The notes under the pieces: model-generated
Databases searched by the model: none
What the model saw: the letters and a program-made list of their open reading frames with translations, nothing else
Told to the model about the DNA's origin: nothing
Program-made: the position numbers and the translations under genes
Origin: Baffinella frigidus
Lineage: Eukaryota > Cryptophyceae > Cryptomonadales > Baffinellaceae
DNA length: 32,184 nt
Assembly: GCA_026770585.1 (NCBI GenBank)
Contig: MU646544.1
Span: forward strand, 392,405-424,588
Direction: 5' to 3'
Part shown: positions 8,579 to 31,688 of the stretch, piece by piece
Layout: every line of letters starts with the position of its first letter
How positions within the stretch are numbered: the stretch's first letter is position 1

Positions 8579-11500
8579 CTGGGTTTGGGGTTTGGGGTTA
8601 GGCCCGCCTCGGGTCGGATAGGCCCGCCTCGGGAGAGATGGCCCCGCCAGGGGCAGATCTGCTCTGCGACAACCAGGACTCGTGTGATCTTCTGGAAACC
8701 CGACCAGATTTTTCAGTGTGCCGGCCGTGCTGGTATCAATAACTTTTTGGCGTTTCGGTCCTAGCCTTACACGGCCTTTACGGGACGGACGACATGGTGG
8801 CCATGTTGGTTTCGATCCGTAATACAACGCATTTTTTTTTTAAAGGTCTGGGGTCGCTCTCTTGGGGCTTGCAACCAGTTGAACTTCGAGCTTTTTCTGC
8901 AGATCTTTTTTACGGAACGGCGAGGTGTTCGCCTATGTTGGGATCATTTGAAACCTAGAGCCAATGTGCTAGGACTTGGCCAAATCGAACTTCGAAGTTG
9001 CAGGATGCGAACTTCTATATGGACCGTAATTACTAGTACACACCATGATGTGTACTGCAAAATTTGAATTTAAAACACTACATGTCCAAAAGAGTCCATC
9101 TAGAAGTTCGCATCTTCGTAACTTCGAAGTTCGCCCAGGCCAAGTCCTACCACATTGGCTCTAAAGGACCTGCAGGACGAGGAACGGCTTTCGAGGGGGC
9201 ATTTGCGTCGCAACAGTAGATTTGGGAGTTGTATCACACGAGTCAAGGCGTGGGGAACATACAGGTGAAGAAGAGACAGCCTGCTTGACTTCGAGAAAGG
9301 GCCTTGTGACAGAAGCGCGGCTCACCAAATTGGTGAGCCCAAATAGAACGAGAAAGAGGCTAACGGGGTACCTCGCTCATAACAAACCGCCCCCCCCCCT
9401 AGGACCACCATAGGGCCCTAGGCATAGGCCTACTGTAGGGTCCTATGGGAGGGCGGTTTCTTATGAGCGAGGTACCCCTGTAGGTCGTGGGGCTCGCAAC
9501 CTGTTTGACTTCGAGGAAGGAGTTGAAGCCCGCCTCCCCGTTGTCGCGCCCGATCCCGCTCCGCTTCACCCCACCCCTGATTCAGGGTGTAGGGTTGAGG
9601 GTTTAGGATTTAGGGTTTAGGGTTGAGGCAACCAACAACATGATTTCTCCGGAGGCGGGCCTATCGCCAAGATCCCGCTCCGCTTTACCCCACCCCTGGT
9701 TCAGGGTGCAGGGTTGAGGGTTTGGGATCTAGGGTTTAGGGTTGAGGCAACCAACAACATGAGTGCTCTCGAGGCGGGCCTATCGTCCGGATCCCGCTCT
9801 GCTTCACCCCGCCCCTGCCACCAATAGAAAAAAATGAGCGCCACGGAGGTCCCGAGGCGGGCCTATCCCATCCGACCCGAGGCGGGCCTATCGTCCGGAC
9901 CCCGCTCCGCTTCACGCCGCCCCTGCCGCCACCCAACACTTATTAACACTTGTTGACTTTATACCATGAGCGCTGACAGCCAACATTCAGGCAGGGGGCA
10001 TAAGCGGACCGAGCATGCCCGGTCCGCTTATGCCCCCTGCCAGCCGCCGCCCGAATACGTACATTTCTGCGCTGAATTATCTGGCGTTTCGGTCCTAACC
10101 TTACCAAGGCCTCTTCGTGTCTGATTGGGAGGGCGGGGGGTACCAGGGGGCCTGACAGAATCCAGGACGAGAGCCCGCCGCGGGCCGTTAGATCTTATCT
10201 CAGAAAACGAGTTCTAAAACTCGTTTTCTTAAGTCAATTCCCTTACAATTTTGTCAACTTATGCGGAGAGTAAAGAATAAGTTGACGAATTTGTAGGGGA
10301 ATTGACTTAAGAAAGCGAGTTTTAGAACTCGTTTTCTGAGATAAGATCGACTGTACTCGGGGTAAGTCCCTATCCCTTGAGTGGCCAGGGGGTCATATTT
10401 GACCCTCCAAAGGTCCTAGGCGCCTACGTTTGCCCTACGGTAGGAGCGTACTGGCTACTGCCCACGTGAGTGATACTGCACGTGCCCTCGGGAGAAAACA
10501 TCGGGATCCACAGAGAGGGGGGAGGTGTTACCAAGGGGCATGGCAGAAGCAAGGCTGGGATCAGTTGACCCACGCGACGCCACACTTGAAGGCCCGCGCC
10601 CCCCCCTCCCTTACACCGAGTTTGTACCAGACGGTTTTAATTTCCGTACCGGGGAGCGTGTTGGACACACCGGATTCGGGGTTGGACACACCCGGTTTGG
10701 ACTAATCAGATCCGGGGGCGGGGGGGGGGTACCAGGGGGCCTGGCAGAAGCAGGGCTGGGAGCAGTTGACCCATGCGATGCCACACTTGAAGGCGCGCGC
10801 GACGCGCTGGCCCCGCGTGGCGTCCCCGCTCAGGACGGCCCCGGCCAGCCCTGTTAGTTGTACAGTTGTTGTACAGCGAGTTATAAAAAATTATAAAGTA
10901 AGTTGCACAGTTATACAGTTAGTTGTACAGTTTTACAGTTGTACACTTTGCTGGCCCCGCGTGGCGTCTCCGCTCAGGACGGCCCCGGCCAGCCCTGGGA
11001 AGGTACAGGTGTACAGTTAGTTGTACAGTTAGTTGTACAGTTGTGCAGTTAGTGTTACAGTTTCACAGTTATTTGTAGAGTTATAGAGTTGTAGCGTTGT
11101 AGAGTTGTAGAGTTGTGGAGTTGTGGAGTTGTAGAGTTGTAGAGTTGTAGAGTTGTAGAGTTATAGAGTTGTAGAGTTGTAGAGTTGTGGAGTTGTACAG
11201 TTGCCCGCGCGCGGCGTCCCCGCTCACGGCCCCGGCCAGCCCTGTACACTTAACTGTTAGTTGTAGAGTTGTACAGTGAGTTGTACTATTAGTTGTACAG
11301 TGGTACACTTACTTGTACAGTTTTAAAGTTGGTTGTAGAGTTGTACAGTTGCCCCCGCGCGGAATCCCAGCTCAGCACCGCTCCCACGAGCCCTGGGAAG
11401 AAACAGTGAGGTGTACAATTGCACAGTTAGTTGTACTAGTTGTAGCGTCAGTTGTAAAGTTGAGCAGTTAGCTGTGCGGTTGTACAGGAGAGAAGCACCG

Positions 11501-31688: not shown

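Follow-up and report, generated by a model that had tools for sequence, protein, structure and literature searches.

Short telomere-type arrays inside chromosomes, the interstitial telomeric sequences (ITSs), have been described in human and horse, and the available part of that study places 31% of the human ITSs in introns, a share that fits random insertion (PMC7215372). The same part of the text considers it interesting to test the effect of such intron repeats on splicing, and the string 'splic' is absent from the main text of a review on ITSs (PMC6410037). According to the accessible portions of two further papers, transposable elements in mammalian introns show an orientation bias and are depleted close to exons, those very near an exon being found mainly on the donor side (PMC3088655, PMC1794541). 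In introners, as described in the available part of another study, many genes have received introns from one repeated sequence (PMC9860276); the main text of that paper has no match for cryptophy, telomer, Baffinella, simple repeat or CCMP2293. The genome paper on Baffinella sp. CCMP2293, a conspecific of B. frigidus, reports in its accessible part a 534.5 Mbp draft with 41.1% repeats, and its main text contains neither 'intron' nor 'telomer' (PMC9756366). Telomeric arrays in introns are likewise unmentioned in the available parts of two cryptophyte genome papers (PMC12220804, PMC12747079), and no earlier description of telomeric arrays as splice regions was found in the open-access literature.

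Here we describe such arrays in the Arctic cryptophyte alga Baffinella frigidus, which is placed in Cryptophyceae in the taxonomy, using a genome of 382 Mb in 1364 contigs that is a different edition from the draft in PMC9756366. The arrays resemble the human and horse ITSs, as far as the accessible text of PMC7215372 describes these, in being short, telomere-type, inside chromosomes and in part intronic, but those of B. frigidus occupy about a fifth of the sampled intron gaps, show a strand bias and directly adjoin acceptors. With the mammalian intron elements, in the portions available of PMC3088655 and PMC1794541, they share the prospect that selection against a transcript-disturbing orientation leaves a strand bias in introns, but unlike those elements they sit at the acceptor. 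They also recall introners, although introners are copies of an element (PMC9860276, available part) while the sequence in B. frigidus is a seven-base array. Hundreds of sites in one genome provide a testable case for whether intronic telomeric repeats affect splicing, the question raised in the accessible part of PMC7215372, and a natural experiment on the minimal requirements of a 3' splice region, on the survival of intron repeats in one orientation, and possibly on intron origin.

The window, by which we mean the whole 32,184-nucleotide stretch analysed, corresponds to positions 392405-424588 of contig C240 and contains two spliced genes on opposite strands. The first is an ALDH gene of the betaine/amino-aldehyde dehydrogenase type (8492..26987, minus strand), with 19 exons according to the transcript-derived MMETSP protein P0001, of which the readable DNA lacks a micro-exon and part of exon 7. 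The second is an NAD(P)-binding gene (PF13460, SDR-like; 27091..31682, plus strand), in which exons 1-6 were placed and whose annotated protein extends beyond exon 6. When the ALDH open frames were joined, the best matches were P0001 and an annotated B. frigidus protein, P0002, and the SDR-like query matched a second annotated B. frigidus protein, P0121. P0001 agrees exon by exon with the ALDH exons of the window and, judged by this agreement, probably comes from the same species as the window DNA. Fourteen ALDH junctions reproduce P0001, each with one GT/GC-AG solution, and five SDR junctions were likewise uniquely solved as GT/GC-AG from P0121, so that exact removal of spliceosomal introns restores the protein at 19 uniquely solved junctions in the window. 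The SDR model is based on the annotated protein and homologues, and transcript support, at the protein level, concerns the ALDH gene only. With the hand-set acceptors of ALDH introns 7 and 8/9, these junctions gave 21 usable acceptors.

In the ALDH gene, P0001 sets the coding start in exon 1 (26878..26987, minus strand; donor GTCCTC) and also fixed the choice among several ALDH exon copies. GC donors were found in introns 2 and 3, after exons 25790-25841 and 24319-24450, respectively. The exon numbers of the first-pass annotation agree with the 19-exon model, whose exon 7 falls partly within an N gap. Coding DNA for a 13-residue piece of P0001 (ACAPGIRNISLEL), assigned to region 17302-18676, was not found in the window, and the piece is also absent from P0002; one explanation is a micro-exon that was lost in assembly. 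Compared with P0001, P0002 carries intron-like stretches that are missing from the transcript protein, and the annotation of such introns may therefore be unreliable.

Telomere-like tracts were defined as runs of at least 21 bp of heptamers with at most one mismatch from CCCTAAA in any phase. A tract that is C-rich on the sense strand ends 1-6 nt before the AG at 9 of the 21 acceptors. Six of these belong to the ALDH gene (all minus strand): 25844..25933, 2 nt before the acceptor of exon 2 (exon 25790-25841); 23578..23677, 4 nt before exon 4 (23493-23573); 14039..14096, 2 nt before exon 13 (13963-14036); 12911..13083, 4 nt before exon 14 (12824-12906); 9581..9628, 4 nt before exon 18 (9501-9576); and 8580..8602, of the CCCCAAA type, 1 nt before exon 19 (8492-8578). 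The other three belong to the SDR gene (plus strand): 28298..28319, again of the CCCCAAA type, 6 nt before exon 3 (28326-28416) and with more tracts within 28161-28288; 30915..31019, which runs to 1 nt before the acceptor of exon 5 (CCCTAAACCAG; exon 31021-31109); and 31561..31616, 6 nt before exon 6, which starts at 31623. All were placed by the splice models and the tract rule. The first-pass annotation had named these nine among 20 visible acceptors; 21 proved usable here, and the same nine carry tracts. Its remark that the C-rich strand is in the transcript in both oppositely oriented genes also holds, and a G-rich sense tract lies within 40 nt of 0 of the 21 acceptors.

Donors in the window have C-tracts in 2 of 21 cases and G-tracts in 1 of 21. 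The donor-side C-rich tracts include a group at 11577..11854 (minus strand), the first of which begins 4 nt past the ALDH exon 16 donor. The G-rich sense tracts that had been reported at 12404-12472, 19531-19622, 23858-23995 and 28813-28838 are indeed present. By the tract rule, three are G-rich on ALDH sense (plus strand), namely 12417..12470, located 65-80 nt upstream of the exon 15 acceptor, 19531..19625, about 11 nt past the exon 7 donor, and 23856..23990, in the middle of intron 3; the fourth, 28813..28842 (plus strand), is G-rich on SDR sense and lies 142 nt upstream of the exon 4 acceptor. The G-rich tract nearest to an acceptor was 80 nt away (ALDH intron 14, tract rule), or about 52 nt with the borders of the first-pass annotation. 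In total, 2416 bp of the 20,153 intron bases in the window are in C-rich tracts and 295 bp in G-rich tracts. When random interior positions of the same introns were taken, 3.05 acceptor cases (sd 1.39) were expected against the 9 observed (P for 9 or more = 9.1e-5); with the other loci and the genome-wide words described below, chance was rejected as the cause of the tract pattern.

At seven of the nine tract acceptors, the tract starts no more than 6 nt from the AG and reaches 48-173 nt back. The usual distance from branch point to AG is about 18-40 nt. Given these lengths, the branch point and pyrimidine region of the seven introns would normally fall inside the tract, in agreement with the earlier suggestion that tracts sit where these elements belong. 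The further suggestion, that the tract offers pyrimidines and a branch-like site, did not translate into an advantage: the pyrimidine richness of tract acceptors is about equal to that of other acceptors, and within the last 45 nt a strict YTNAY branch motif is present at 4 of 9 tract acceptors vs 8 of 12 others. Comparing these 9 with the 12 others thus revealed no superiority of tract acceptors in pyrimidine or branch content. This bears on the proposal of the first-pass annotation that telomere repeats were recruited adaptively, being favoured at acceptors as better 3' splice signals than their predecessors. The enrichment at the window acceptors is what such recruitment would produce, but it does not predict tract acceptors without richer pyrimidine or strict branch motifs, nor the result from other genes given next, and we regard it as quite unlikely.

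To extend the comparison to other genes, exon pairs were taken from genome searches with Pfam models (PF00069, PF00225 and PF00118), a selection independent of tracts, and the intervening DNA was analysed. Pairs were picked by neighbouring matches and size before the sequence was seen, with longer introns preferred in the first batch. The resulting 38 loci (30 kinase, 5 kinesin and 3 TCP1) are a subset of those listed and represent 37 genes, since L047 and L063 belong to a single gene, and paralogues may be present among the kinase loci. The 44 intron gaps (36,997 bp) contain 7477 bp of tract that is C-rich on sense vs 475 bp that is G-rich. Nineteen gaps have C-tracts only, seven have both kinds, none has G-tracts only, and 18 have none; in all seven gaps with both kinds, C exceeds G. 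Every one of the 24 loci with tracts favours C on sense (sign test p = 1.2e-7), as does each of 23 genes with tracts when counted by gene (p = 2.4e-7, calculated by hand), and with the two window genes the C bias is found in every sampled gene that has tracts.

The position of the tracts gave a different picture. C-tracts were found on the acceptor side of 12 of 44 gaps, where interior positions would predict 11.1 (sd 2.0), and on the donor side of 9 of 44. G-tracts occur on the acceptor side in 1 of 44 gaps and on the donor side in 2 of 44, and the single acceptor-side case is L068, where the Pfam match may be an exon copy. With exact introns, which were proposed for 19 of 20 single-intron gaps and are doubtful in several, no acceptor excess over the interior was seen either (4 vs 5.0 expected). 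The strand bias thus runs throughout the sample, and only the window shows a clear position bias within introns. Of the earlier claim of a strand bias specific to acceptors, the C bias on sense stands, but it is a property of whole introns, and the enrichment that adaptive recruitment would need is absent from the 44 other gaps.

A bias that extends through whole introns and beyond acceptors would also arise if arrays entered transcribed genes in a fixed orientation, for example by telomerase extending the template-strand 3' end at breaks, which would leave the C-rich strand on sense regardless of splicing. Such an insertion bias would also suit the fact that the other tandem arrays of these introns are much less biased. 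It does not predict, however, that the non-telomeric arrays share an AG-poor lean, nor the excess of acceptor-like words after C-tracts in the genome; we consider it unlikely.

Several controls qualify these counts. The reversed heptamer AAATCCC was also mostly C on sense (1297 vs 40 bp), probably because degenerate tracts match the control. Around 70 tracts in random stretches, YAGV was found after 20 and before 16, with no clear difference. Also in random stretches, exons predicted by codon bias had the C-rich strand on sense in 11 of 13 tract-exon neighbourings, of which 8 came from one stretch (L031) and both exceptions lay beside one weak prediction. When the predictor was applied to the window, 14 of its segments overlapped known exons, 13 of them on the right strand and 1 on the wrong one, and another 19 segments fell elsewhere; this result is therefore supporting only.

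TTTAGGG is a telomeric unit known from plants and algae, according to the accessible part of PMC8226300. Three copies of it gave 25832 forward and 27288 reverse overlapping matches in the genome, against 13 and 14 for a reversed-word control, and these telomere-type arrays stand at internal sites, as ITSs do. Among the contig termini sampled, all five starts read N, three of five ends carried C-rich or degenerate telomere-like arrays (L070, L074 and L078), and two carried none; the assembly therefore seems to break in telomere-like arrays.

We then compared the words that follow C-tracts genome-wide. After CCCTAAACCCTAAAC, YAGG occurs 478 times, YTGG 36 times and YGAG 19 times, so that YAGG is 13-25 times commoner than the two control words. 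The donor-abutting word CAGGTAAACCCTAAACCCTAA has 14 occurrences, a comparison that is rough because this word is longer and phase-specific. The 100 YAGG places listed are spread over contigs C1 to C71. For the flanks, we sampled at most 12 of these 100 places, taking every eighth, and at most 8 of the 36 YTGG places, taking every fourth. Coding-like sequence with a score of at least 6 from the site followed the YAG in 7 of 12 YAGG sites and the YTG in 0 of 8 YTGG sites, with median scores of 8.1 and 1.4, respectively. On the antisense strand, a looser best-segment score of at least 6 was reached by 4 of 12 YAGG and 0 of 8 YTGG sites, and at one YAGG site (L088) the antisense score was slightly above the sense score; one sampled YAGG site ran into N and another into a G-rich array. 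The YAGG excess is what adaptive recruitment would also give, while an insertion bias leaves it unpredicted. It supports, with the coding-like flanks, the part of the first-pass proposal in which telomere repeats serve as 3' splice signals. That they are tolerated and usable because they are free of AG and GT fits better than that they are ready-made, better signals, and we prefer this reading because the bias is intron-wide and tract acceptors show no pyrimidine or branch advantage.

Since one strand is favoured, we examined the composition of the introns. Outside tracts, the C/G skew of intron sequence is 0.05-0.07 (window and 39 gaps), and the introns are so nearly balanced that base composition has no power to explain the bias; a general C-over-G skew was thus rejected as its cause. 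AG in non-tract intron sequence is at 0.94 of expectation, which indicates little avoidance. By a tandem-repeat finder, 76 of 97 telomere-like arrays are AG-poorer on sense and 17 AG-richer. Non-telomeric tandem arrays of these introns share the tendency more weakly (58 vs 36 with 24 ties, p = 0.03; AG 235 vs CT 535), and clear exceptions include a 101-bp CAGG array and a GA array. One array of a 16-mer, CTGACTGACTGGCTGA, in ALDH intron 5 contains AG 5 times and CT 61 times.

Telomeric repeats in transcribed DNA carry a known R-loop and G-quadruplex cost. G-rich RNA and a G-rich non-template strand might thus be harmful in themselves, and G-rich sense arrays would be lost irrespective of splicing. 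This general cost and the bias of whole introns fit such a loss, as do the shorter homopolymer runs in the 44 gaps, which lean to C on sense (at least 6: C 75, G 41; at least 7: C 36, G 26). Long sense poly-G is, however, not depleted (at least 8: C 16, G 21; at least 9: C 8, G 16), so that a general avoidance of sense G runs is not supported for long runs, and the YAGG excess would be left unexplained. We therefore judge avoidance of R-loops and G-quadruplexes decidedly unlikely as the cause of the bias.

Based on these observations, we lean towards the reading that in many introns the 3' splice region is carried by splice-compatible C-strand arrays and that arrays in the opposite orientation cause mis-splicing and have mostly been lost; we hold it to be somewhat probable. 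The proposed course is as follows. First, arrays of the TTTAGGG type are abundant in the B. frigidus genome and fill much of its introns. Second, an array with CCCUAAA in the pre-mRNA contains no AG or GU, is slightly over half pyrimidine, and sometimes includes CUAAC beside CUAAAC; lacking AG and GU, C-strand arrays should be compatible with splicing. Third, such an array could reach the terminal YAG without decoy splice sites, and the spliceosome might locate the branch point and the 3' splice site within the array or at its end. Finally, in the reverse orientation, each seven-base unit presents UUUAG|G, which is acceptor-like, and G|GU, which is donor-like; with decoys in every unit, G-strand alleles would mis-splice and mostly be lost. 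Under this scheme, the branch point would lie inside the array, and selection on splicing would be the cause of the strand bias.

Another origin would be local duplication only, in which a few founder tracts were copied together with exon edges and the nine window acceptors represent few independent events. Exon edges in the window are in fact duplicated: additional partial copies, 27 in all and 26 of them in the same orientation, lie near 13 of the 23 exons that were tested (window 8266-31412), a feature that the first reading of the sequence did not mention, and by eye some were copied with their tract. The bias recurs, however, in 24 of 24 other loci with tracts, even if the kinase loci may include paralogues, and the YAGG places listed are spread over many contigs. 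Local duplication alone is already disfavoured, and we consider it highly improbable. The partial copies themselves indicate that some apparent exons are copies, and because copies in the same orientation include exon edges, introns seem to grow by tandem duplication. Similar copies were seen by eye in kinase introns L040, L049, L053, L058 and L063.

To return to the splice-compatible arrays, some introns consist almost entirely of array, as estimated by a looser tract rule with junctions read from the frames. One of them is L048, a 212-bp intron that is 95% array and has no inner AG, and whose removal joins a kinase-like reading frame. The others are L037 (563 bp, 94% array), L044 (372 bp, 88% array, GC-AG, in a kinase gene as read from frames), L043 (199 bp, 97% array) and L067 (149 bp, 85% array). 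Telomeric repeats inserted in exons might become spliceosomal introns at once if the C-rich strand is transcribed, because the array would supply both pyrimidines and branch-like adenosines while being free of decoy AG and GT, and these nearly all-array introns of 149-563 bp would then be such births. We offer this as a tentative and rather doubtful idea; if true, telomere repair would be a source of intron gain.

Outside the tracts, repeated units with inverted repeats and GGTACCTCGCTCATAAGAAA-like ends, resembling small transposable elements, were noticed by eye in the window at about 1998-2105, 7217-7330, 7981-8110, 8160-8265 and 9365-9482. Two coding-like stretches were also picked out by coding score, at 1057-1623 (plus strand) and 5030-5578 (minus strand), and these resemble ankyrin-repeat genes.
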